Positions 12,453 to 40,571 are shown, counted from the first letter of the stretch. The stretch is DNA of 42,732 nt from a virus (IMGVR_UViG_3300028384_000562:1-42732); one strand, 5' to 3'. Numbers and translations are program-made. Notes: generated by a model from the sequence alone, not told the origin.

Positions 12453-14113
12453 AGGATATAAAAAAGTTAGTCAATAGTTTTCCCGACTATGTAGACTACA
12501 TTTGGGGATGTATCGGGCTACCCGCTGCAACTCCAATACAGAGGGATATTTCCAATACACTACAACAAGGCCACAGACGACTACTGATTGAGGCTTTTCG
12601 TGGTGTCGGTAAGACATATTTGACAGGTGCGTACGCAACATGGAGGCTCCTGAGGAACCCTAATGAGAAAGTACTCATTATATCGGCCTCAGGACCCCAT
12701 GCGGCGGCTATCAGCACGTTTATTCACAAGCTCCTAGGGGAAGTACCCCTGTTGGAGCATTTACGCCCTAGAACGGACCAGAGAAGCTCTGTGATGGCCT
12801 TCGATGTGAACGGGTGTAAGGCTACAGTACAACCCTCGGTAAAATGCCTGGGTATTAACAGCCAATTGCAGGGTAACCGAGCTAGTATCTTGATTGCCGA
12901 TGACGTAGAGACCAGTATTAACAGTGCTACGGAGGTCATGCGAGCTAAGATACTACAACAGATTAATGAATTTGATTCTATCCTACAAACTAATAGTGAT
13001 GCAAGTATAATCGGGCTAGGTACACCCCAGACGGGTGACAGTGTGTACAATAGGTTTCTTGAGAAGGGTTTTGTGGTCCGTATATGGCCCTCCAGAATCC
13101 CTGAGAAGCCTGAAATGTACGAAGGTAAGTTAGCCCCTTACATAGACAATAAAATCGCCTTAGGGGAGCCTACAGGGACTCCTACGGACACTAGATTCTC
13201 CCATGAGGATTTACTTGAACGTGAGGCATCCGTAGGACGTACATATTTCCGATTGCAGTATCAATTGGATACTACATTATCTGATGCGGATAAGTACCCG
13301 CTGAAACAGAGTGATATGATTATTATGGATGTTCCCATGGAGAAGGGACCAATCGGGCTATCCTACAGCGGAGCTAGGGATACAATTATATCAGAAATAC
13401 CCAATATCGGGTTCACTGGGGATGCCTTTCATGGCCCTCAGTACGTAGACAAGGAATTTACGAAGTATCAGTACAGTATTATGTCGATTGACCCCTCAGG
13501 ACGGGGTAGCGATGAAATGGGTTACGCTATAATAAAATATCTACATGGAAAGATATACATCATGGCCTGTGGGGGCCTACAGGGTGGGTACAATGAAGAT
13601 AATCTCTTTAAGTTAGCTACCTTAGCTAAGCAATATCAGGTAAATACCATGTTCATCGAGAGTAACTTTGGTGATGGTATGTTTGACCAGTTATTACGCC
13701 CAGTACTTAAGAAGGTGTACCCCGTGAGTATCGAGGAAGTCCGGAGTAGTAAACAGAAGGAACTGAGGATTATTGATACAATTGAACCATTATTAAATCA
13801 ACATAAATTAGTATTTGATAGGTCCCTTGTTAAAGGGGATATTCAGGAGGCCCTTAGTGACCCCATGAAGATGCCGTACAGCCTCATGTACCAGATAACT
13901 CATATTACGAGGACCAGAGGGTGCCTAAGGCATGATGACCGCTTAGATGCGCTAGCAATAGCCCTAGCAGCCGTTGTTGAAACCATAGGTATCGATGAGG
14001 ATGAAGCTAAGAAAGAATGGAAAGAAGAACAATTACAAGAAGAGCTTGATAGGTTCATAGGAGATGTACAGAATCCCCAGTGGGTACGGGGGTTAAAAAA
14101 GGTTGCCCTATAG
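12449..14113 (+). CDS. terL: Large terminase (packaging ATPase and nuclease)
   Basis: A 554-residue T7 gp19-like motor protein that pumps DNA into the prohead and cuts concatemers. The ATPase half shows Walker A FRGVGKT at residues 50-56 and Walker B ILIADDVE at 147-154, followed by a GLGTPQ coupling-type motif near 189. The RNase H-like nuclease half shows the acidic residues Asp348 (SIDPSGRG), Glu404 (FIESN) and Asp497/Asp500 (HDDRLDAL). Both halves look intact and the length is usual for the family (T7 about 586). The last four codons overlap a phage promoter. No gene follows for about 670 bases, consistent with this being the last late gene before the genome end. Confidence 0.95.
   Translation: MKDIKKLVNSFPDYVDYIWGCIGLPAATPIQRDISNTLQQGHRRLLIEAFRGVGKTYLTGAYATWRLLRNPNEKVLIISASGPHAAAISTFIHKLLGEVPLLEHLRPRTDQRSSVMAFDVNGCKATVQPSVKCLGINSQLQGNRASILIADDVETSINSATEVMRAKILQQINEFDSILQTNSDASIIGLGTPQTGDSVYNRFLEKGFVVRIWPSRIPEKPEMYEGKLAPYIDNKIALGEPTGTPTDTRFSHEDLLEREASVGRTYFRLQYQLDTTLSDADKYPLKQSDMIIMDVPMEKGPIGLSYSGARDTIISEIPNIGFTGDAFHGPQYVDKEFTKYQYSIMSIDPSGRGSDEMGYAIIKYLHGKIYIMACGGLQGGYNEDNLFKLATLAKQYQVNTMFIESNFGDGMFDQLLRPVLKKVYPVSIEEVRSSKQKELRIIDTIEPLLNQHKLVFDRSLVKGDIQEALSDPMKMPYSLMYQITHITRTRGCLRHDDRLDALAIALAAVVETIGIDEDEAKKEWKEEQLQEELDRFIGDVQNPQWVRGLKKVAL
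14102..14113 (+). promoter_or_regulatory. Phage RNA polymerase promoter P1
   Basis: GTTGCCCTATAG, identical to three other copies in the window. It is preceded by an A-rich stretch and predicted to start at the final G. It lies within the last codons of terL and would transcribe into the genome-end region, like the outermost promoters of T7 (phi-OR or phi-OL). Promoter identity is inferred from copy number, position and CTATAG similarity to T7. Confidence 0.75.
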
Positions 14114-14131
14114 GGGCCAGGGAGAGGCTAA

Positions 14132-14149
14132 GGTATACTTAGGGTATAC
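14132..14149. repeat. Paired GGTATAC motifs downstream of P1
   Basis: GGTATAC occurs at 14132-14138 and 14143-14149, 11 bp apart, separated by TTAG and followed by TAAGG. The same paired arrangement recurs at 18926-18942 after promoter P2. GTATAC is itself palindromic. This could be a protein-binding site or part of the CTTAGG-type repeats near the genome end. Confidence 0.5.
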
Positions 14150-14170
14150 TAAGGTTCTGATTAATATGCC

Positions 14171-14202
14171 TGTGGATAACTTAGGGATTCTTAGGTTATC
14201 CA
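14171..14202. repeat. Inverted repeat with perfect DnaA-box match
   Basis: TGGATAAC (14173-14180) and GTTATCCA (14195-14202) form an 8-bp inverted repeat with a 14-base loop. The left arm with two preceding bases reads TGTGGATAA (14171-14179), the reverse complement of the DnaA consensus TTATCCACA. The right arm gives a weaker match. It may be a hairpin for DNA maturation, a host DnaA site, or chance. Confidence 0.45.
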
Positions 14203-14295
14203 TGGGTACTTTCAAAAAATACCACAAAAATCCAGAAGGGTAACGTTAAGTGCAGAAATCAAAATTCCCCCATGACCTTTAAAATACCGCGAGAC

Positions 14296-14332
14296 ACCAA
14301 GGCTTACCAAGGAAAACCAAGGTAAACCAAGG
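14296..14332. repeat. ACCAAGG array A, four copies at exact 10-bp period
   Basis: Exact ACCAAGG copies start at 14296, 14306, 14316 and 14326. The period equals about one helical turn, so a bound protein would contact one face of DNA. T7 has arrays of a 7-bp motif (CCTAAAG) flanking its terminal repeat, and this array is in the matching place. Function is inferred by that analogy. Confidence 0.7.
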
Positions 14333-14430
14333 GGCCCGCAAAGCTTTGATGGGGTGCCCTTAGGATTCACAGGTAAGCTAATGGATAGCCTAGGGATGCA
14401 AACAGCACCAGCAAATTTTTCCTTAGGTAC

Positions 14431-14503
14431 ACCAAGCAACACCAAGGGCATACCAAGGGATACAAAAGGCAGCACCGGCAGCACGTACCAAGGGACACCA
14501 AGG
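14431..14503. repeat. ACCAAGG array B, five copies including one variant
   Basis: ACCAAGC at 14431, then exact ACCAAGG at 14441, 14452, 14487 and 14497, spaced 10-11 bp within two subgroups. A degenerate copy (ACCAAGA) lies at 14654. Array B is about 100 bp downstream of array A, so the pair could bracket the terminal repeat or cleavage site. Confidence 0.65.
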
Positions 14504-14729
14504 GACCTGATTTTTATGATTATCATCATTAGTAAAAATGCACCAATACCGTGCAAATCCTAAAAGTATGCACCAAAATAAACATCAATAAAAACAACAG
14601 CTTAGCCTGGTATCCCTGAAAAATCCTAATAAAAACAAGAACATACCTGGCGCACCAAGATAGTGCAAAGTGTGTCGAATTATGTAACCTCAAAATCCAT
14701 AAGTACTTGATTTATAAGCAATCACAAAC

Positions 14730-14746
14730 TTGGCACGGTACCTGCA
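14730..14746 (+). promoter_or_regulatory. Sigma54-type (-24/-12) promoter for the early genes
   Basis: TTGGCACGGTACCTGCA matches the RpoN consensus YTGGCACGRNNNTTGCW at all defined positions but one (C for the first T of TTGC). The invariant GG and GC have the required spacing. The expected start is near 14757, about 29 bases before the first early ATG, leaving room for a leader. A sigma70 reading of the same stretch (TTGGCA with TATAAA) gives only a 14-bp spacer. RpoN promoters need a host AAA+ activator, and none is encoded here. Confidence 0.6.
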
Positions 14747-14785
14747 AGGTATAAACCACGATTAACCGAAACGAGATTAAATAAT

Positions 14786-15085
14786 ATGAAAACACTTACC
14801 ATCACTTGCAAAGATTGGCGCAACAAGGAAGCGGAGTACACTTACGAAGAGTACAAAACGAAATGGCAGCACGGCACAATTAACGATTTGCGACAGCTTG
14901 CCATGTGGAATGGTGACGAAAAAGCCGTTGAGGAGCTGCAAGCAATGCAAGCGGCACTCGATGATTTACGGGAATATCTTGTTAGTAAGGATTTTATGAA
15001 AACATACAAGCGACAAAACCCAAACGATGATTTTTTTAGTCGTGATACCTTGGACCTTTTGAACAAATTAGCGGAGGAGTTTTAA
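14786..15085 (+). CDS. First early protein, unknown function
   Basis: A 99-residue protein, the first gene after the sigma54-like promoter. It is mixed alpha/beta by composition, with an N-terminal strand (MKTLTITCKDW) followed by charged helices (AEYTYEEYKTKWQ, AVEELQAMQAALDDLREYL). There are no cysteine clusters or membrane segments. The first gene to enter and be expressed in T7-like phages often counters host defence (T7 gene 0.3), so a host-takeover role is possible but is inference from position only. I do not recognise the family. Confidence 0.72.
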   Translation: MKTLTITCKDWRNKEAEYTYEEYKTKWQHGTINDLRQLAMWNGDEKAVEELQAMQAALDDLREYLVSKDFMKTYKRQNPNDDFFSRDTLDLLNKLAEEF

Positions 15086-15087
15086 TA

Positions 15088-15717
15088 ATGAATATTAAAC
15101 AAGCGGAATTAATTGTGGGCGGCTTATCTCAGACTAGCAAAATGCCTACCATGTCAATCAGCCTACCGGCTACACTTTGCAAAACCGGTAGCAAGCTGCG
15201 CCAAGTAGAAGGCAGCGTATGTAGTAAGTGCTACGCTTGCAAAGGCGCGTACACTTGGAAAAGTACCGAGACAGCACTTAAGCGCCGTTACGATGCGCTC
15301 GGCGGTGCTCAATGGGTTGAAGCCATGGTGGCGCTAATGAATAATAAAAAGCGCATAGTTAAATCGGGTTTGTTCCGGTGGCACGATAGCGGCGATTTGC
15401 AAAGCCTAGAGCACTTAGAAGCGATTGTGTCAGTAGTGCAGCAAACGCCACAAATTCGCCATTGGTTACCTACTAAGGAAAAGGCGCTTATTTCTGAGTA
15501 CTTGCGGAAAAACGGCGCATTCCCAGAAAATATGATTGTACGCGTTTCGGGTGCAATGATTGACGGCGCAGCGCCTAAGGTATCCGTTCAAACTAGCACC
15601 GTAACAAGCGACAAAAACGCTGCTACTTGTCGCGCCTTTGAGAATAACGGCGAGTGCGGCGAGTGCCGCCAATGTTGGGATAAAACCGTGCAAAATGTTG
15701 TTTACTTAGCGCACTAA
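15088..15717 (+). CDS. GP88-family protein with two four-cysteine clusters
   Basis: A 209-residue protein that I recognise as similar to the phage 'gene product 88' family, whose function is unknown. Clues are SKMPTMSISLPA (17-28), the cluster C31, C45, C48, C51 around VCSKCYACKGAYTW, the segment LFRWHDSGDLQS (95-106), and a second cluster C181, C190, C193, C196 near the C-terminus. Eight cysteines in two groups suggest zinc or an iron-sulphur cluster. It starts two bases after the previous stop, with GGAGG upstream. Its high use of GCG and CGC codons is typical of this early block and unlike the late genes. Confidence 0.75.
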   Translation: MNIKQAELIVGGLSQTSKMPTMSISLPATLCKTGSKLRQVEGSVCSKCYACKGAYTWKSTETALKRRYDALGGAQWVEAMVALMNNKKRIVKSGLFRWHDSGDLQSLEHLEAIVSVVQQTPQIRHWLPTKEKALISEYLRKNGAFPENMIVRVSGAMIDGAAPKVSVQTSTVTSDKNAATCRAFENNGECGECRQCWDKTVQNVVYLAH

Positions 15718-15731
15718 TGGAGGGTAGAAAA

Positions 15732-15854
15732 ATGACCTTGGAAGATATTTTGTTTGAACGTTACGCCAAGCTTGTAGCCGCAAGCGTACGCGCAGGACTG
15801 CCATATCCTACGTGGCAGGAATATTTAAAAGAATGGAGCACTGACAATGATTAA
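15732..15854 (+). CDS. 40-residue early protein
   Basis: A short gene preceded by an excellent ribosome site (GGAGGG at 15719-15724, about 7 bases from the ATG). The product starts MTLEDILFERYAKL and ends WSTDND. It is probably helical and amphipathic, with AGLPYPTW in the middle. Its stop lies 8 bases inside the next gene, so the two are coupled. The strong ribosome site and tight packing make it likely to be real despite its size. Function unknown. Confidence 0.6.
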   Translation: MTLEDILFERYAKLVAASVRAGLPYPTWQEYLKEWSTDND

Positions 15855-16644
15855 TTCGCACGTAGTAAGTTTATATGATTATACCGGCGTAACAGTAACG
15901 CCATGGGCTGAGGCGGGTTATCAATGCTACTGCTACGATATCCAACACCCTGAGCACGGCGAAACGGTGCGCTTTGATTCAGGCGGCGCTATCCATAAAC
16001 TACGCTTAGACCTGCACGCTAAGGATTCCGCAGGGCACCATGCTTTCGTGCAGGAATTGTACAAGCGCCATGTTGATAAAACGCATATTATGTTCGCTTT
16101 TCCTGTTTGCACTGATTTGGCGGTATCAGGCGCAGCGCATTTTAAGCGCAAGGCGCAGCTAAACCCTGAATTCCAAAACGAGGCGGCGGGGCACGCTATG
16201 GCTTGCGCTTGGCTTGGTGATTTATTGGAAGTGCCATATTTTATTGAAAACCCTGTTTCAGTACTTAGCACGCTATGGCGAAAGCCTGATTTCTCTTTTC
16301 ATCCGTACGAGTACGGGGGCTATATCAGCGAGCACGAAGCGCTACACCCGCTTTATCCGGATTACATAGCGCCAAGGGATGCCTACAGCAAAAAAACGTG
16401 CCTATGGACCGGAGGCGGCTTTGTGATGCCTGATAAAATACCGGTACAGTGCGAAAGCTTTGGCAGTAGCACGCAGCACCGCAAATTAGGTGGGAAAAGT
16501 ATGAAAACAAAAAACATTCGCAGCGCTACGCCCCGAGGTTTTGCTAATGCCGTTTTTGAAGCGAACGAGTTGTTAGATTTAGATTATGATTACGCCGAGG
16601 TTTGCCGAAACGGTAAGCCGGTTGCGGAGTGCAATTGTTGCTAA
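15847..16644 (+). CDS. C5 DNA methyltransferase-like protein
   Basis: A 265-residue protein resembling phage proteins related to cytosine-C5 methyltransferases. An N-terminal SAM-site-like motif (VVSLYDYTG, residues 6-14, then AGYQCYCYDI) is followed by a motif IV-like FPVCTD (85-90) with the candidate catalytic Cys88, ENP at 134-136, KKTCLWTGGG at 182-191 and a closing RSATPRGFANAV (225-236). Classical enzymes have Pro-Cys in motif IV. Here it is Val-Cys, so activity or target base may differ. The usual target-recognition region is short (family members are often over 300 residues). It could protect phage DNA from restriction, or modify it otherwise. The start overlaps the previous gene by 8 bases. 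Confidence 0.65.
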   Translation: MINSHVVSLYDYTGVTVTPWAEAGYQCYCYDIQHPEHGETVRFDSGGAIHKLRLDLHAKDSAGHHAFVQELYKRHVDKTHIMFAFPVCTDLAVSGAAHFKRKAQLNPEFQNEAAGHAMACAWLGDLLEVPYFIENPVSVLSTLWRKPDFSFHPYEYGGYISEHEALHPLYPDYIAPRDAYSKKTCLWTGGGFVMPDKIPVQCESFGSSTQHRKLGGKSMKTKNIRSATPRGFANAVFEANELLDLDYDYAEVCRNGKPVAECNCC

Positions 16645-16655
16645 TTTTTTGTTGT

Positions 16656-16667
16656 AGGGTATACCCT
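16656..16667. repeat. AGGGTATACCCT palindrome
   Basis: A perfect 12-bp palindrome in the 45-base gap between the methyltransferase-like gene and the next early gene. It contains the GGTATAC core found twice after P1 and twice after P2. It is a candidate operator, but no binding protein is identified. Confidence 0.45.
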
Positions 16668-16689
16668 GGTTCTATATTAGGAGATTCTA

Positions 16690-16866
16690 ATGTCTGTTTT
16701 TACTGTTGGTATTGATTTTGAAGTACTGCGCCTTGAGATTGAAGCGAGCACGCCGGAAGAGGCACGCGAAAAGGCACTTAAATTAATTAAAAATAACCCG
16801 TTTTATCAATCGCCAGATTATTGGGTTGGTTATGTCGATGATTCCGAAGGGCAGGAGCTTTTATAA
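16690..16866 (+). CDS. 58-residue early protein
   Basis: Small protein beginning MSVFTVGIDFEVLRLEIEA, with an EEAREKALKLIKNN helix and an acidic tail (VDDSEGQELL). The strand-helix-strand pattern and the ASTPEEAREKAL stretch recall small phage proteins that pair with host enzymes, but no family is recognised. AGGAG lies about 7 bases before the ATG, and its stop overlaps the next start (TAATG). It opens a run of closely packed small early genes after a 45-base gap. Confidence 0.65.
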   Translation: MSVFTVGIDFEVLRLEIEASTPEEAREKALKLIKNNPFYQSPDYWVGYVDDSEGQELL

Positions 16867-17093
16867 TGAACGAAAACGCTTTGTATTTATTCGCTGATAT
16901 TCCGAACGATGCCGAGGGGCAAGCTTTTATACGCTCGCTTAGAAAGTACCGAAACCCACGGTATAAAATGCGCGTACGTGGGCAGGGTTTAAACGCTGAA
17001 GGGCACGCCCTTGGTTGGCGCAAGTTTACGTACGGTGCGCCCTTAAAATATAGTGCTCGCTTGCGTGTTTATATGGAGGACACCCAGAAATGA
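16866..17093 (+). CDS. Basic 75-residue early protein
   Basis: Overlaps the previous stop (TAATG) and the next start by 4 bases (ATGA). The N-terminal half is acidic (LFADIPNDAEG), and the rest is strongly basic and aromatic (SLRKYRNPRYKMRVRGQG, WRKFTYG). Clusters of Arg, Lys and Tyr suggest nucleic acid binding or interaction with an acidic host protein. This is composition only; no recognised domain. Confidence 0.62.
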   Translation: MNENALYLFADIPNDAEGQAFIRSLRKYRNPRYKMRVRGQGLNAEGHALGWRKFTYGAPLKYSARLRVYMEDTQK

Positions 17094-17278
17094 AAGCTAA
17101 GCGCTATTTTGTGCTCGATTCAGCCGGATTGCTGCACGCCCTTGGTTATTGCGACACGTGGCACGATGCCTACGAGGCGGCGCATAACGTGGACACACAA
17201 AACGACATTTTAGCGGTGTTTGATGAAACAGACGCTCGCGACATTTATCAACGAATAGAGGGTTACCTATATGCTTAA
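17090..17278 (+). CDS. 62-residue early protein
   Basis: A compact alpha/beta protein (KRYFVLDSAGLLHALG, then a helix WHDAYEAAHNVD, then DILAVFDETDARDIYQ). The pattern resembles small stand-alone domains found repeatedly in phage early regions. It is coupled to both neighbours (4-base overlap upstream, 8-base overlap downstream), and AGGA lies upstream. Function unknown. Confidence 0.62.
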   Translation: MKAKRYFVLDSAGLLHALGYCDTWHDAYEAAHNVDTQNDILAVFDETDARDIYQRIEGYLYA

Positions 17279-17519
17279 AATTAATTCAGAGACTGTATGC
17301 GATGCGGTGGCGTACGATTGGGAAGTAATGCACGATATTCTCGGCGATGTTCGCGAGGGTACCTTGGATTACTCAGTGTTTAATGAGTGCCGCAAGCGCC
17401 TATGCGATAAATTAGCAGGTATGAGCGCCTTATTGGGGCACACCGAAGATAGCGCCAATGTGGACGAGGTTATCGATGATATTCGTACGCTCGCTTGGTT
17501 GGCTTGGGAGATTGCATAA
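17271..17519 (+). CDS. Acidic helical early protein
   Basis: 82 residues, predominantly helical and acidic, with three cysteines (SETVCDAV, NECRKRLCDKL) and a C-terminal helix ending WLAWEIA. Acidic helical early proteins in phages are often DNA mimics or inhibitors, but nothing specific is visible here. It overlaps the previous gene by 8 bases, and its stop shares TAATG with the next gene. Confidence 0.62.
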   Translation: MLKINSETVCDAVAYDWEVMHDILGDVREGTLDYSVFNECRKRLCDKLAGMSALLGHTEDSANVDEVIDDIRTLAWLAWEIA

Positions 17520-17647
17520 TGTACTACTTAACCCTGATTGCAACGAATCAGCGTATCGTTAAATCTGAGCGCCGTGAGCACGTAGAGAAACTCTTACAAA
17601 GCTTAGCGGAAAAAACCGATTGGAAAATTGAATATGAAAGCATTTAA
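17519..17647 (+). CDS. 42-residue early protein
   Basis: Starts in the TAATG overlap with the preceding stop. The product (MYYLTLIATNQRIVK, then a charged helix HVEKLLQSLAEK and a final strand DWKIEYES) has a plausible beta-alpha-beta layout and codon use like its neighbours. No good independent ribosome site was seen, so translation would depend on coupling. The gap after it (17648-17712) is AT-rich and may hold a weak host promoter. Confidence 0.5.
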   Translation: MYYLTLIATNQRIVKSERREHVEKLLQSLAEKTDWKIEYESI

Positions 17648-17712
17648 AACTTTTTACCTGTTAAAAAACCGGTACAATAATCACTTGTATGTATCTACGG
17701 GAAAAACCTGGT

Positions 17713-17922
17713 ATGCCTAAAAACGATGATTGGCGAGCGCCTCGCCCAGTGTATGAAGATGACCGGTTGGAGTCGGTTGATAGACTAGTTAAACAATATC
17801 GCAATATGTGGCAGGATGCCGATTTTGACGATAGACTTGATGATGCTGCACGTTATGAAACGTTGTATCGCTACTACAAAAAACAATTGGAAGAGGGAAA
17901 TAACTATGCGCCAAAATTCTAA
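17713..17922 (+). CDS. Acidic/Arg-rich early protein, 69 residues
   Basis: Begins MPKNDDWRAPRPVYEDD and continues as a charged helical protein rich in Asp, Arg and Tyr (DRLVKQYRNMWQDADFDDRL, YYKKQLEEG). An in-frame ATG at 17689 would add eight residues, but it has no ribosome site. GGGA at 17699 favours 17713. A TACAAT at 17673-17678 could be a -10 box, although its -35 is poor. The gene overlaps the helix-turn-helix gene downstream by 17 bases. Function unknown. Confidence 0.6.
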   Translation: MPKNDDWRAPRPVYEDDRLESVDRLVKQYRNMWQDADFDDRLDDAARYETLYRYYKKQLEEGNNYAPKF

Positions 17923-18115
17923 AATTGATAAACGTTTTAAATTAACCGATAGTGACAGGGAGTTAATTATACAATTGAACGAAGAACGCCGCCGGTTACA
18001 GGCTGAGCTAAAGAAGGTACAAATTGGAGCTATCGCGAAAACGTTTGAAGTCACCACGCAAACTATTTATGAAGTATTGGGAGGTCATGATGATAAAGTC
18101 AGAACAGCCAAGTAA
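17906..18115 (+). CDS. Helix-turn-helix DNA-binding protein
   Basis: A 69-residue protein with a basic, coiled N-terminal half (SDRELIIQL, NEERRRLQAELKK) and a helix-turn-helix at about residues 38-59 (IGAIAKTFEVTTQTIYEVLG), similar to the recognition part of resolvase/Hin-like or sigma-like domains. It is probably a transcription regulator of phage or host genes. The start at 17906 follows GAGGG 8 bases upstream and was chosen over a longer upstream version that reads through the previous gene. Candidate targets are the GGTATAC palindromes at 14132, 16656 and 18926, but that link is speculation. Confidence 0.68.
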   Translation: MRQNSKIDKRFKLTDSDRELIIQLNEERRRLQAELKKVQIGAIAKTFEVTTQTIYEVLGGHDDKVRTAK

Positions 18116-18257
18116 AGATTGGGACGTACCACAGGCGCTTAAGGATATTGGTATCACTAAGCAAATGATTATTGATTGTTGGACAGGCTATGCCGAAGGA
18201 AAAGATATATGGGGTTCAAGCGATTCAAAGGGAGGCGAAGAATGCGCGAAGGTGTGA
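18090..18257 (+). CDS. 55-residue early protein
   Basis: Starts MIKSEQPSKDWDVPQALKDIG. The ATG at 18090 is 5 bases after GGAGG. A tandem ATG at 18087 is too close to that site. The core QALKDIGITKQMIIDCWTGY looks like two short helices with a turn and might bind protein or DNA. The C-terminus is Gly/Ser-rich and acidic. Overlaps both neighbours by 16-26 bases. No family recognised. Confidence 0.55.
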   Translation: MIKSEQPSKDWDVPQALKDIGITKQMIIDCWTGYAEGKDIWGSSDSKGGEECAKV

Positions 18258-18472
18258 CCTTTGGAAAAATCCATGATGAGCTGTATTTGGTGCAGCGTTA
18301 TGGTGAAACCGTGGGCGAGGTGTATCGTCCAATGGGTACCGCCTTTTGGTTAATCCGTTGTAATAAAGAAAATAGCAAACTAAAATACCAAAACCTGGTT
18401 GATGCCAAGCGTGCCTGTATTGATATGCTGACACGTGATGAAATCGGGCTTGATTACTTTGAAGGATGTTAA
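18242..18472 (+). CDS. 76-residue early protein
   Basis: MREGVTFGKIHDELYLVQ, then strands EVYRPMGTAFWLIRCN and a helix LVDAKRACIDMLTRDE. The alternating beta strands followed by a helix suggest a small compact fold. GGGAGG lies 8 bases upstream of the ATG. It overlaps the preceding gene by 16 bases and is followed three bases later by the next start. Function unknown. Confidence 0.6.
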   Translation: MREGVTFGKIHDELYLVQRYGETVGEVYRPMGTAFWLIRCNKENSKLKYQNLVDAKRACIDMLTRDEIGLDYFEGC

Positions 18473-18474
18473 TT

Positions 18475-18708
18475 ATGAAAATCTTATCTACAATCTTGCG
18501 TAAAACTGTACGCTTAAACAAAACACGCCGTGCCTTTGATTTTATGGGTAGAGGCTATATTCTCGCCGTACGCTCGACTAAGAGCCGAGGCTATGGGATA
18601 ACACCCGCAGCCGGAGTTAAGCCCTCTAGGGAGTTTACAGCGATTCACATGGGGTATATCACCCTTTACCGCTCAGTAATGAAGCACACACTAAAGGAGA
18701 ATTTCTAA
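18475..18708 (+). CDS. Basic 77-residue early protein
   Basis: Very basic (KILSTILRKTVRLNKTRRAF, VRSTKSRGYG), with a C-terminal aromatic and basic stretch (GYITLYRSVMKHTLKENF). The start at 18475 is preferred over an upstream ATG at 18466 because AAGGA sits 9 bases before it. The charge suggests contact with nucleic acid or an acidic protein. TAATG overlap joins it to the next gene. Confidence 0.6.
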   Translation: MKILSTILRKTVRLNKTRRAFDFMGRGYILAVRSTKSRGYGITPAAGVKPSREFTAIHMGYITLYRSVMKHTLKENF

Positions 18709-18878
18709 TGAAAGAATTTAGAAACGAATTGACCCTCTTTAAGGAGGATTTTATCGATGCTGACACTTGGTTGGAGGTATGCAATCAAGCAGGGTTTGAT
18801 GAGGATGATGCCCTTGGTAAAAATACCCTGAAAGTCGTTTGGTCTATCTCATCAATCGCTGATTGGCAGGACGAATAA
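18708..18878 (+). CDS. Acidic 56-residue protein, last early gene before RNA polymerase
   Basis: MKEFRNELTLFKEDFIDAD, followed by WLEVCNQAGFDEDDALG and a hydrophobic WSISSIADW near the end. About a quarter of residues are Asp or Glu. Small acidic proteins just before or after T7 RNA polymerase can inhibit host enzymes (T7 gp0.7 or gp2 act on host RNA polymerase), but no similarity is visible. AAGGAG lies about 8 bases upstream. Promoter P2 begins two bases after its stop. Confidence 0.6.
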   Translation: MKEFRNELTLFKEDFIDADTWLEVCNQAGFDEDDALGKNTLKVVWSISSIADWQDE

Positions 18879-18880
18879 AT

Positions 18881-18897
18881 TAATTGTTGCCCTATAG
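18881..18897 (+). promoter_or_regulatory. Phage RNA polymerase promoter P2
   Basis: TAATTGTTGCCCTATAG, identical over 17 bases to P4. It can be aligned to the T7 promoter, which also opens TAAT and closes CTATAG, with one base fewer between. It lies 65 bases before the RNA polymerase gene, so the polymerase would amplify its own transcription. The transcript start is expected at 18897. Confidence 0.8.
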
Positions 18898-18925
18898 CGG
18901 GAAAGAAAAGGAAAGGGAAGCTTAG

Positions 18926-18952
18926 GGTATACTTAGGTATACCTTAGGTACC
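18926..18952. repeat. GGTATAC/CTTAGG repeats upstream of RNA polymerase
   Basis: GGTATAC at 18926-18932 and 18936-18942, then GGTACC at 18947-18952, each preceded by TTA or CTTA at about 10-bp spacing. It is similar to the pair after P1 (shared CTTAGGGTATACT). The site lies between promoter P2 and the RNA polymerase start, suitable for repression or as a maturation element. Confidence 0.5.
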
Positions 18953-18961
18953 CTTAAGGAG

Positions 18962-21544
18962 ATGATTTTTATTATGTACAACACAGATAATTTCTTAGAG
19001 CAGCCTGAGCAGTTACAGGACTTAATCTTGGAGCAAGCATTCATGGAGCAAAAGTTCCTAGAGGATGCAACAAACAAATATGAGAATAGTATTAACCGTA
19101 TGCTCCAGGCGGGGTTATTCGCTAATACTACTGAGGGTGCCGTGCTACAGAAAATGTCTGTGGAAGCAGTCGCAGAACAAATATCATCATATTTTTCTAG
19201 CTCAGTCCGTGGGCAGGGTGCTATATTCCGTGATTACCTCAAGAATAACTTTGAGGGCCGTGAGGAAATTCTTGCATTTACTGTACTTGAATTCCTGATT
19301 AACGCTGTTTCCGTACGTACCGCAAAGGTACCGGCGTTAGCTCTAGCGGTTACCAGTAAGGTCCTAGACTTACTTTCTGTTGAGCAATTCCAGAAGAACG
19401 AGCCTAAGTTTTATTCTTATCTTGAATATGAATATAAGAGCCGTGGTATTGGGTACATCAATTCCCGTAAGAAAAAGTTAGCTAATATGACAGGTAATAT
19501 CATTGACCCTGTACAGGAAGGTAAGGAAGCATCCTTTAAGGCTAACATTGGTGCCCGATTGATTGATTGTGTACTTAGCAGTGGCTGTAATCTATTCGAG
19601 GCTAGAATTCAGTATGTTAACGGTAAATCCGAGAGGGTACTAACGTTAACCGAGGATTCCCTAAAGGTCATTGGGCGAGTAAAGGATAGAAATGTATTAT
19701 TTTCTGTTACCTATAAGCCCTTGATTGCTCCACCGCTACCATGGACTACGTTGTGGGATAACGGAGGTTATTATTGTAATAATAATCAAACATTCATCCG
19801 TAACAGCAAATCCTGTAAGTATGTTGATGCTAATTATGAGCCTAAGCAATTAGAGCGGGTATTTGATGTTATTAATCACATTCAAAATACAAGATGGAAA
19901 ATAAATACATTCATCTTGGACGTTGTTAATGAGATTATCGGCGGCAGCCTGGTGGACCCTAATACGCCTAGCAGTAACCCAAAGTTTTACGCAGGGTTAC
20001 CGTACATGGATACATTGAACGTGTATGACATGGTGCGTAGGGAAGATTATGGTCCCTTGGATGACCGAGGTATGCACATTAATCGTGAAGATTATAAAAA
20101 CTGGTACAGGGATAAAGAGGTACAGCTAAAGAAGCTTGAGGCCATCCGCAGTAAACGAATCATGTTCACTCTGGCCCACAACATAGCTACTGAGTACAAG
20201 GATAGAGAAGCGATGTACTTCACGTACAACACGGACTTCCGTGGACGCTTATACCCTATTCAGCAAATCCTGAATCCTCAGTCTACCGGTGCAGTCAAGT
20301 CATTCTTAACGTTCGCTGATGAGGAACACCTGACTGACCAAGGTGTATACTGGTTGTATATACATACTGCCAATACCTATGGTTTAGACAAGGAATCCTA
20401 CGAGGCACGCCGAGCATGGGTACTGGAAAACTATGAGCAAATCCTAGAGAACGCTAGAAACCCGATTGAGAACATTGAGGTATGGAATCAGGCTGATGAA
20501 CCCTTGATGTACTTAGCGGCTTGTAAGGCTATCTTGGACCATTCCAAGGGCAAACCTGTGGGCCTCCCAATTAGTCTGGACGCTACGTGCTCAGGCTTGC
20601 AGCTATACAGTGGCTTGCTAAAGGACTTGGACGGTGCAAAGGCAGTTAATGTCATTGATAAAACCGAGCACGGTAAACTTGAACGCCCTGCTGATGTATA
20701 TACTGATGTTGCGAACAAGGTAACTGAGTATCTACAGAACGGTGATTACCCATCACAATTTACATTTACTACACGTGATGGTGAGTTTAAATCTGTATCG
20801 ACAGAACAAGAGGCTAAGGACCTTCTCGGGAACGTCACCAGGAAACTCACTAAGCGCAACGTAATGACGGTCCCATACTCAGTAACCAAGCGGGGTATGT
20901 TTGACCAAATCAGAGAATTGCTCGATGAAATGGAAGATAACGAGGAAGTATTCTGGGAGGGTGATAAATGGGTTGTTGCAAAACTACTTGTGGAGCTAAA
21001 CGCTCGGGCCATCAACGAGATTGTACGAGGTGCAAGTGAGGGGCAAGAATTTGTGAAGCACGTGGTTAAGGAGTTTTACTCAGAGCAAGCAGATTACCCG
21101 CTTATCTGGGAAACACCGTTTTTCAATTTCCCTGTTGTACAGTGGAAGACGAAGAAAAAGAAAAGGAAGGTTAACTCAGTCTTTGGGTACCTTACCTTGC
21201 AGACTCCGACTAATAAGATTAATAAGCAACAGCAAAGCAATGGGATAGCTCCAAATCTAATCCATAGCCTAGACGCTACGCTTATGTACCTTACAGTCGA
21301 GAAGATGCGAGCATTAGGCGGTAAGTCTTTCATGCTTATTCACGATTCCTTTGGGGTACCACCGAATGATGTGGAGAATCTCAATAGCAGCGTGCGTGAG
21401 TCGTTTGTCGAGCTGTTTAAGACTAATCCATTGGACCATTGGGTACGTCAAATCTCACCTGAGTATGTCGAGGGTGCTGAGGATGTCATGCTTAATACCA
21501 TGGACTTAGATGATATATTGTCTAGTACATATATCTTTTCATAA
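18962..21544 (+). CDS. T7-like single-subunit RNA polymerase
   Basis: An 860-residue DNA-directed RNA polymerase that transcribes the middle and late genes. Catalytic residues stand out: Asp540 (LDATCSG), Lys631 and Tyr639 in TKRNVMTVPYS (the same numbers as in T7), and Asp795 in IHDSFG. TDFRGRLYPI is the usual fingers/palm motif. The specificity-loop region, before NGIAPNLIHSLD, is shorter than in T7 and begins with a Lys/Arg run, in line with a different promoter sequence. AAGGAG (18955-18960) is almost against the first ATG at 18962 and 13 bases from the second at 18974. The true start may be 18974 (856 residues). Confidence 0.96.
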   Translation: MIFIMYNTDNFLEQPEQLQDLILEQAFMEQKFLEDATNKYENSINRMLQAGLFANTTEGAVLQKMSVEAVAEQISSYFSSSVRGQGAIFRDYLKNNFEGREEILAFTVLEFLINAVSVRTAKVPALALAVTSKVLDLLSVEQFQKNEPKFYSYLEYEYKSRGIGYINSRKKKLANMTGNIIDPVQEGKEASFKANIGARLIDCVLSSGCNLFEARIQYVNGKSERVLTLTEDSLKVIGRVKDRNVLFSVTYKPLIAPPLPWTTLWDNGGYYCNNNQTFIRNSKSCKYVDANYEPKQLERVFDVINHIQNTRWKINTFILDVVNEIIGGSLVDPNTPSSNPKFYAGLPYMDTLNVYDMVRREDYGPLDDRGMHINREDYKNWYRDKEVQLKKLEAIRSKRIMFTLAHNIATEYKDREAMYFTYNTDFRGRLYPIQQILNPQSTGAVKSFLTFADEEHLTDQGVYWLYIHTANTYGLDKESYEARRAWVLENYEQILENARNPIENIEVWNQADEPLMYLAACKAILDHSKGKPVGLPISLDATCSGLQLYSGLLKDLDGAKAVNVIDKTEHGKLERPADVYTDVANKVTEYLQNGDYPSQFTFTTRDGEFKSVSTEQEAKDLLGNVTRKLTKRNVMTVPYSVTKRGMFDQIRELLDEMEDNEEVFWEGDKWVVAKLLVELNARAINEIVRGASEGQEFVKHVVKEFYSEQADYPLIWETPFFNFPVVQWKTKKKKRKVNSVFGYLTLQTPTNKINKQQQSNGIAPNLIHSLDATLMYLTVEKMRALGGKSFMLIHDSFGVPPNDVENLNSSVRESFVELFKTNPLDHWVRQISPEYVEGAEDVMLNTMDLDDILSSTYIFS

Positions 21545-38396: not shown

Positions 38397-40571
38397 ATGG
38401 TTTCAGATAAGGTCTTTACCACAGATGGTACTACTAATATTTTTACCTCTGATTTTCCGGTCATCTCCGAGGACCATATCCGTGTCTTTTTAGGCGGGAC
38501 AGTTGTATCTCGTGATGACTACGATTTAATTAATAACTCGGCGGTATTTTTTACCGCCCCCACTACGGGCCAAACACTAACTTTACAGGTTGGTACTACA
38601 CCCGCAGATATCTTAACGTCACCTACAGACGCAGGTATTGTTGCAGCTAACATTGCTGACGTTCAGACCCTAGCGGATATCGCAGGTGACATTAGTACAG
38701 TGGAGAATATCTCAGGTGATGTCGAAACTGTCGCAGATATTAGTACTAACGTTACTACTGTTGCTACTAATATCAGCAGTGTCAATACTGTGGCTTCTAA
38801 TATCGATGAAGTCATCACGGTTGCCAATGATTTAACTGAGGCCATCTCAGAAGTAGAGACAGTAGCCCTAGACTTACAAGAGGCCACCTCAGAGATTGAG
38901 GTTGTTGCTAATGATATCGTTAATGTAAATACTGTCGGTACAAATATTACTGATGATACAGACGTTACTACGGTAGCCGGTATTGAAGCTGATGTAACTA
39001 CTGTAGCCGGTATTGAAGCTGATGTTACAGCCGTTGCTAATATCTCTCAGGACATCCAGGATGTTCAGGATAAATTGACAGAAGTACAGGTTGTTGCAGA
39101 TGACTTGCAGGAATCAGTATCTGAGATTGAAACAGTAGCAGCGGATATAAATAATGTTAACACTGTTGCAGGTATTAATAGTGACGTTACTACTGTGGCT
39201 ATTAACAATACCAGTGTACAAACAGTAGCTAATGATATTACTAATGTTAATACAGTCGCAGGTATCAACGCTGATGTAACTACGGTTGCCGGTATTGATG
39301 CTAATGTATCTACAGTAGCGGCTAACATTACTGACATACAAAATGCAGAAGAAAACGCAACACTCGCAAGTGAGTACGCAACGAAAGCTGAGAACAGCTA
39401 CGTAACTGGTACTACAGATTACTCAGCGTACCACTGGGCGCAAAAGTCTGCTCAGAGTGCTGCGACTTCTGGTGCTGATTACCGTGAGACTATCGGTGAT
39501 GTTACGTATGACTTACAGGGCTTCCCTAATCGTGCAGACTCAACCATCGCATTTGACGAAGGTACATTGGAGTTTACATTAGCACCCTCTAGTACCTCAT
39601 TTGCTGTGTACTATCGTGGTGAGTTGTTCACAATTAGCTCAGCGTTGACATTAACAATTACTGATACTACTGGTGGGCGTTACATTAAGTTTGACCCTAC
39701 TACTAGCCAGTTAGCTGAGACAACGATTAATGGTCACCCTAGTATCCTAGAGGACCTACTTGTAGCTTATATCTTCTGGGATTCAAGTACACAGAAAGCA
39801 GTAATCTTTGGTGAGGAACGTCACGGTTCGCATCGTGATACCCAATGGCATCTTTCACAACATTTGGATGTAGGTGCTGTATGGCGTTCAGGTGGTGGCT
39901 TAGGCTTTACACTGAATGATAATGACGCAACGGTATCTGTTGGTACACCTCTGGTTATTGCTGATGAGGATTTGACGCACACCATCAATCACGGTACTGC
40001 TACAAATGCTTACGAGCAGGTACTTTCTGGTGATGCTGAGATTCCCTCAATTTACTTGAGTGGTACAGATGTCATCCAGACAACACCTACTACAGTACCT
40101 TGGGTACAGGGTACGTCTACAGTACGCTATAACCCCATCACAGGTGGTAGTGGTTCACTTGTTGATACCCCTAATAACAGCTATGTTTCTTATTGGATAA
40201 TCGCTACTAATGATACCAAGTACCCTATTAAGGCTATAATGGGTCATTACTCGCATAGTAACATTGCAGGGGCAGAGCTAGAAGAATTTGATGATTATGG
40301 TTTCTCAGTACCAGAGTTGGTTCCGATGTACCAAGTCATCTTACGAGCTAATAGCGCAGCACCAAGCCAATGTCAGATTGCAGCGGTATATACATTAACT
40401 AGCAGACAAGCAACAGCAGTAGGCGGCTTTAGTGCTTCCTCACACGATAACTTGACTGACAGGGGCATTAGTGACCAACACCCGATTGGTGCTATTACTA
40501 ACTTACAAGCTACCCTAGATGATAAGGCTAGTACAGCAGAAGCACTGGCTTTGTCGATTGCATTAGGATAG
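38397..40571 (+). CDS. Tail fibre protein with T7 gp17-like N-terminus and decapeptide repeats
   Basis: A 724-residue fibre. Residues 1-70 (VSDKVFTTDGTTNIFTSDFP, then VRVFLGG-like strands) resemble the T7 gp17 domain that binds the tail. Residues about 80-320 consist of degenerate repeats of about 10 residues with a D-V-T-T-V-A pattern, likely a trimeric coiled shaft. Around 330-345 is YATKAENSYVTGTTDYSAYH, then ADYRETIGDVTYDLQG, and the rest is beta-rich with no clear enzyme domain. It is the anchor fibre; the small genes following encode additional distal pieces. Confidence 0.85.
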   Translation: MVSDKVFTTDGTTNIFTSDFPVISEDHIRVFLGGTVVSRDDYDLINNSAVFFTAPTTGQTLTLQVGTTPADILTSPTDAGIVAANIADVQTLADIAGDISTVENISGDVETVADISTNVTTVATNISSVNTVASNIDEVITVANDLTEAISEVETVALDLQEATSEIEVVANDIVNVNTVGTNITDDTDVTTVAGIEADVTTVAGIEADVTAVANISQDIQDVQDKLTEVQVVADDLQESVSEIETVAADINNVNTVAGINSDVTTVAINNTSVQTVANDITNVNTVAGINADVTTVAGIDANVSTVAANITDIQNAEENATLASEYATKAENSYVTGTTDYSAYHWAQKSAQSAATSGADYRETIGDVTYDLQGFPNRADSTIAFDEGTLEFTLAPSSTSFAVYYRGELFTISSALTLTITDTTGGRYIKFDPTTSQLAETTINGHPSILEDLLVAYIFWDSSTQKAVIFGEERHGSHRDTQWHLSQHLDVGAVWRSGGGLGFTLNDNDATVSVGTPLVIADEDLTHTINHGTATNAYEQVLSGDAEIPSIYLSGTDVIQTTPTTVPWVQGTSTVRYNPITGGSGSLVDTPNNSYVSYWIIATNDTKYPIKAIMGHYSHSNIAGAELEEFDDYGFSVPELVPMYQVILRANSAAPSQCQIAAVYTLTSRQATAVGGFSASSHDNLTDRGISDQHPIGAITNLQATLDDKASTAEALALSIALG
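38640..39340 (+). repeat. Degenerate 30-bp tandem repeats within the fibre gene
   Basis: The decapeptide repeats are visible in DNA as near-30-bp units. The closest pair, 38971-39000 and 39001-39030, share the stretch GTAGCCGGTATTGAAGCTGA. Others are more divergent. Such repeats can expand or contract by recombination and so change fibre shaft length. Confidence 0.75.

Follow-up and report, generated by a model that had tools for sequence, protein, structure and literature searches.

Place of the small-gene block in the genome

Between the large terminase gene and the RNA polymerase (RNAP) gene of the viral record IMGVR_UViG_3300028384_000562 lie fifteen small, closely packed genes, named g1 to g15 here, at positions 14786–18878 of the 42,732-nucleotide (nt) stretch that was analysed as a whole and is called the window. 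A first-pass annotation of this DNA had placed the block among the early genes, pointed to its distinct codon use and expected anti-defence and host-shutoff proteins in it. The question raised by the locus is therefore whether these genes belong to the takeover of the host, and what their composition and relatives indicate about how the block was assembled. The evidence makes it probable that these genes form the class I region, early and concerned with host takeover, of a marine T7-type phage resembling Lauvirus, and that the block is a fast-turnover cassette supplied from a shared marine gene pool.

The window, which spans an entire IMG/VR virus record, was assigned to an Autographiviridae phage near Lauvirus because its core genes are syntenic with those of Podophage Lau218 and Roseobacter phage CRP-143; T7 shows the synteny at a greater distance. 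The syntenic set comprises RNA polymerase, primase-helicase, polymerase A, ribonucleotide reductase (RNR), portal, scaffold, capsid, tail tubes and large terminase. Towards Lau218 it extends over terL (56%), RNAP, primase, RNR and virion genes (portal 58%). The record opens within the late region. The large terminase gene ends at 14113 and the gene of the single-subunit phage RNA polymerase occupies 18962–21544 on the plus strand, with the block exactly between the two, so that the terminase gene is followed by a noncoding end region with short repeats like those of T7, then by the small genes and finally by the RNA polymerase gene. The block thus precedes the gene of a single-subunit RNAP, in a genome syntenic with that of T7, at the place where a class I region is expected, and the early position proposed beforehand agrees with the arrangement in T7, Lau218 and CRP-143.

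Promoters and transcription layout

Exact copies of the element TTGCCCTATAG were found in the window only at 14103, 18887, 21548 and 31450, all on the plus strand and all at gene boundaries. When one mismatch was allowed, the observed count was reached in none of 100 shuffles, and in the relatives L002–L005 a diverged version follows the RNA polymerase gene at the corresponding position. On these grounds TTGCCCTATAG is likely a promoter of the phage RNAP. The first copy (14103–14113, plus strand) overlaps the end of terL on the entry side of the early region, and the second belongs to a segment ahead of the RNAP gene (18887–18961, plus strand). Strong hairpins follow both copies, at z = -3.5 for the copy at 14103 and at z = -4.9 for that at 18887, where the hairpin lies in the 5' leader ahead of the RNAP gene.

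No copy of TTGCCCTATAG is present inside the block; the copies flank it and run from the RNAP gene onward, which is consistent with transcription by the host polymerase. Given its position and the lack of internal phage promoters, the block is probably the first DNA to enter the cell and would be transcribed by the host RNA polymerase before the phage enzyme is made.

The interval between terL and g1 (14114–14785; 672 bases, noncoding) contains hairpins at 14113–14205 and eight ACCAAGG repeats at 14296–14503, comparable to the CCTAAAG repeats at the genome ends of T7, and is a probable genome-end or entry region. All plus-strand copies of GGTATAC in the genome (14132, 14143, 16658, 18926 and 18936) fall in the three noncoding gaps of the early region, where they form dyads such as AGGGTATACCCT, located in the gap between g4 and g5 (16645–16689), and CTAAGGTATACTTAG. 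The total count of GGTATAC is not above chance and its clustering is striking; the dyads are a possible operator or RNA-processing element.

Gene content of the block

All fifteen open reading frames (ORFs) were recovered on the plus strand, and 10 of the 14 junctions overlap. The coupling described by the first-pass annotation is present as four TAATG junctions (15717, 16866, 17519 and 18708) and one ATGA junction (17090), and longer overlaps join g3/g4, g7/g8, g10/g11, g11/g12 and g12/g13. The start of g3 is probably at 15732 instead of the ATG at 15717, because the latter falls within the GGAGGG ribosome-binding site of g3.

The earlier statement that most of the genes match nothing was upheld for 13 of the 15, for which scans of all fifteen proteins against Pfam and PHROGs returned no family, and fell for g2 and g4. 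The first gene, g1 (14786–15085, 99 aa), is without family. It is followed by g2 (15088–15717, 209 aa), of the GP88 family (PF17338), by g3 (15732–15854, about 40 aa), with a relative near GP88 in another locus (L007; 77% over 30 aa), and by g4 (15847–16644, 265 aa), a Dcm-like DNA methyltransferase of PHROG_757. Beyond the gap, g5 (16690–16866, 58 aa) has no family, and g6 (16866–17093, 75 aa) belongs to an unnamed viral family whose members lie mostly upstream of GP88 in another phage lineage. No family was found for g7 (17090–17278, 62 aa), g8 (17271–17519, 82 aa), g9 (17519–17647, 42 aa) or g10 (17713–17922, 69 aa). A possible helix-turn-helix in g11 (17906–18115, 69 aa) is weak, with matches below cutoff to HTH_7 (E = 0.018) and an RpoH-like profile (E = 0.012). 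Likewise without family are g12 (18090–18257, 55 aa), g13 (18242–18472, 76 aa) and the last gene, g15 (18708–18878, 56 aa); between them, g14 (18475–18708, 77 aa) belongs to a second unnamed viral family, whose members stand directly upstream of GP88 in other phages at 39–46% identity.

Wider searches added little. No match was returned by megablast of the region against phage records, nor by a tblastn search in which the 13 small proteins were run jointly against 50,697 phage records, even at E = 0.1. NCBIfam gave no hit above cutoff, the Rfam and tRNA scans were empty, and none of the 15 genes matches Lau218, CRP-143 or T7. In total, 10 block genes have no detectable relative. Since 13 genes are without family and 10 without relative, function is read here from position, and anti-defence or shutoff roles of the block are plausible by position only. 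The small proteins other than g2 and g4 would most likely bind host targets, as the products of T7 genes 0.3–0.7 do. T7-type early regions have yielded host-inhibiting and defence-evading proteins, and a clean inventory of such a region therefore provides concrete candidates for testing.

A dedicated anti-defence island, like those of T4-like or jumbo phages, would share the position of the block, its small gene size and its scarcity of homologues, and g4 could then act as an anti-restriction methylase. However, no known family of that kind was matched: Pfam and PHROGs gave no defence or anti-defence hit for any of the 15 proteins, and PADLOC gave no convincing match, and none above cutoff, among the 10 of 15 proteins scanned (best E = 0.015). 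GP88, moreover, has the look of an enzyme and not of a DNA mimic or an inhibitor. Such an island is accordingly unlikely, and the block is better described as a class I early region.

Codon use and word composition

Codon use was compared in sliding blocks along the genome, and the block proved to be the most codon-deviant stretch of its size. The codons GCG (.32 against.14 in late genes), CGC (.47 against.11) and GGC (.33 against.16) are two to four times commoner in the block than in the late genes, as had been noticed, and AGC (.36 against.12) and TGC (.72 against.32) rise with them; the contrast with the middle genes is similar. The reported late-gene preference for GCT (.41) and CGT (.53) was confirmed. 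That for GTA is weak, because GTA remains at.35 in the early genes against.43 in the late ones. The synonymous-codon heterogeneity of the block reaches G = 240, against a genome median of 78 and a value of about 42 ± 9 in amino-acid-preserving shuffles. It is equalled or exceeded in 6 of 277 sliding blocks, and sampled blocks that do not overlap the early block stay at G ≤ 125. The deviation is concentrated in g1–g9 (z = 21), chiefly in g2, g4, g7 and g8, and is weaker in g10–g15 (z = 5), which do not stand out from other genomic blocks of 396 codons. At the word level the block is enriched in GCG, CGC and GCGC, a CpG/GpC effect. It holds half of all GCGC words of the genome; g1–g9 alone have 35, where the composition outside the block would predict 2.8.

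A split of this size is not special to the window phage and marks a known kind of region, because the early/late split per degree of freedom (G/df) is 5.9 in the window and comparable in CRP-143 (6.5) and Lau218 (4.1), with T7 weaker (2.1), and because early/late codon differences have been published for about half of the phages analysed (PMC5683454). While the early position and the distinct codon use described beforehand both hold, the codon shift gives no pointer to an anti-defence role.

One explanation would see in the shift mainly translational selection, with late and middle genes tuned to abundant host tRNAs, early genes not, and no foreign origin. It accounts for the finding that all 13 compared codons shift in the same direction as between generic and highly expressed genes of E. 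coli, an axis along which CRP-143 (r = 0.48) and Lau218 (r = 0.45) also shift, and it agrees with the documented early/late differences (PMC5683454). Yet the correlation for the window is only 0.25 (p = 0.06), the distance of the middle genes from the block is almost that of the late genes, and the shift is concentrated in g1–g9 and sharp at the level of the word GCGC. Selection as the main cause is thus possible but doubtful.

The internal break at the gap 17648–17712, where the codon deviation falls from z = 21 to z = 5, suggests another history, in which g1–g9 arrived together from a phage that differed in codon use and restriction background, and g10–g15 are older resident early genes. The word profile points the same way, with GCGC above shuffled expectation in the block and below it in the rest, and with GGCC missing from the block (0 against 9.5 expected) and normal elsewhere. 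Against this, GATC is absent from both parts, a longer GGCC-free gap runs from 38882 across the record end, GP88-linked relatives exist both for g14, which would be resident, and for g6, which would be imported, and no donor of g1–g9 was found. Import of g1–g9 as a unit is given about the same modest, minority chance as translational selection. Turnover of early genes together with relaxed translational selection remains the simplest account of the codon shift, which would then mark the renewal of the cassette and a selection weaker than that on the late genes.

Avoided words bear on the same point. GATC does not occur in the window (1–42732), against about 141 expected from codon shuffles. 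Depletion also affects CGCG (6 against 54.5, in the rest of the genome), TCGA (58 against 118) and CTGCAG (0 against 17), and GTAC is strongly over-represented (317 against 193). CRP-143 likewise has no GATC, Lau218 has no GTAC, and T7 has six GATC. The depletion is probably restriction-site avoidance, a known strategy (PMC6286503). Since GATC is missing from the block as well, either the same pressure has acted on it as on the remaining genes or it derives from phages of similar hosts.

GP88 and the methyltransferase-like gene

Only g2 and g4 carry what appear to be clear enzymatic signatures, and together they form a probable DNA- or RNA-modifying pair. The match of g2 to GP88 (PF17338) is strong (2.7e-27; 96.6 bits against a curated cutoff of 24.4). 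Its cysteines are arranged as C31-x13-C45-x2-C48-Y and C181-x8-C190-x2-C193-x2-C196; C45, C48, C181, C190, C193 and C196 are invariant in 48 aligned GP88 sequences (alignment A2), in which Y49, RWxDxGD and W126xP128 are also kept. An AlphaFold model was obtained at a predicted local distance difference test (pLDDT) score of 96.7. A Foldseek search with this model found no solved structure at E ≤ 0.001. Its fold matches were viral GP88 models, some of them from a spindle-shaped virus of archaea and a tailed virus of haloarchaea, and one model of a Gp37/Gp68-like protein. Among solved structures, a NifB-type nitrogenase-cofactor entry and anSME appeared only at E 0.4–0.8, and viral radical S-adenosylmethionine (SAM) models matched weakly (E 0.14–1.4). 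GP88 is also related to DUF5131 (phage Gp37/Gp68) and DUF7227, each matched weakly by 10 of the 48 members.

The radical SAM motif CxxxCxxC is not present in g2, where the spacing is C-x13-C-x2-C. This pattern with the C-terminal four-cysteine set suggests an iron–sulphur (Fe-S), radical-SAM-like enzyme, small in size, which may act on nucleic acid or on a nucleotide. At least 595 viral matches to GP88 were confirmed. An alignment-based search of GTDB genomes gave 32 loci, several of them on short contigs that may be viral. Of 134 loci examined, 45 have a terminase-like large-subunit gene within 5 kb of GP88, for the most part on the other strand, and GP88 therefore appears often to belong to the early genes and to adjoin the packaging end. 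In 27 of the 134 loci, VRR-type nuclease-like genes, identified as nucleases by eye, lie within 1.5 kb of GP88. The literature searched gave no function for GP88 or DUF5131. Known from hundreds of viral contigs and from archaeal virus models, with strict cysteines and a confident fold yet no known chemistry or solved relative, GP88 is the most interesting lead of the block.

The second gene of the pair, g4, falls in PHROG_757 (2.2e-74), and 1501 phage records were matched; identities to phage records, many of them annotated as cytosine methyltransferases, are 51–60%. The catalytic Cys88 of motif IV and E134-N135-P136 of motif VI, as found in C5 enzymes, are invariant (alignment A5). Unlike canonical C5 methyltransferases, g4 has PVCT instead of PCQ in motif IV and a very short target-recognition segment, and it has no Pfam DNA_methylase match. 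The structural model is of low confidence (pLDDT 60.7) and can be read only as far as a Rossmann core, with Rossmann-type matches that include DNMT3A2 at E = 0.015. By these motifs g4 looks like a compact Dcm-like DNA cytosine methyltransferase that could counter restriction. It may modify phage or host nucleic acid early in infection, most simply blunting restriction.

Auxiliary genes occur in related early regions: that of CRP-143 carries thymidylate synthase, PhoH and an endonuclease V-like gene, and g2 and g4 might by analogy be auxiliary metabolic or repair genes unrelated to takeover. Both sit, however, among small genes of takeover type, here and in phage CRP-2, where GP88 and a 60%-identical methylase lie 1 kb apart in the first genes. 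A purely auxiliary role for the pair is therefore rather unlikely, and a part in early nucleic-acid modification within the class I region is preferred.

A probable gene pool shared with unrelated phages

Among the small genes, only g3, g6 and g14 have relatives that could be clearly detected, all of them in viral lineages that carry GP88 or in related ones. In three other lineages these relatives stand close to GP88, and most of them come from lineages in which GP88 is within about 1 kb. Almost none of the loci with such relatives has a core gene of the window phage. The best reading is that a marine-phage gene pool shared with unrelated phages supplies the early genes. The linkage of g3, g6 and g14 relatives to GP88 is suggestive, not strong, because after clustering each link comes down to about one lineage. 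An apparently strong link of g6 to GP88 (16 of 19 loci) was set aside when clustering reduced it to essentially one lineage. A bolder proposal makes GP88, with its non-canonical three-cysteine motif, a new compact Fe-S class that works with g4 to install an unrecognised early nucleic-acid modification, while the families of the small early proteins g3, g6 and g14 form a takeover module that moves between marine phages together with GP88; we regard this as quite improbable.

Several observations weigh against the account of the block as a host-transcribed cassette of high turnover. The number of sigma-70-like sites in the region is what chance predicts, and no convincing host promoter emerged there. 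The shift along the axis from generic to highly expressed E. coli genes is weak (Spearman 0.31; 0.12 in T7), on a yardstick that may not be that of the host, and no donor with well-matching codon use appeared among the GP88 and methyltransferase relatives compared. The links of g6 and g14 each rest essentially on one lineage. Finally, the block lacks GATC just as the remaining genome does, so that its very recent arrival from a phage that does not avoid GATC is unlikely.

Comparison with known early regions

Early regions of this kind consist of the RNAP gene and several small genes of unknown function (PMC11092137). Genes 0.3–0.7 of T7 resemble the block in lying to the left of the RNAP gene beyond a short-repeat end region, in their small size and in the absence of class II and III promoters. 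They differ in number, about 5 against 15; the block contains no Ocr, gp0.7 or other detectable homologue of T7 genes, and it includes GP88 and a methyltransferase-like gene. The early genes gp02–gp10 of Lau218 also follow terL, are small, include one DNA methyltransferase and deviate in composition. That region, however, is AT-rich (28% GC) whereas the block is GC-shifted, there is no homology at the level of genes, and the RNAP of Lau218 is on the opposite strand, unlike that of the window. CRP-143 has small genes at the same place that are non-homologous and codon-deviant.

Two further observations were made outside the early region. Lau218, the closest relative with a name (NC_024329; 17374–17664 and 37677–38984, locus L152), carries DsrC and dissimilatory sulphite reductase genes, for which no specific search was made in the window. 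In the window itself, a putative tail-fibre gene contains 30-base tandem-like repeats at 38658–39324.

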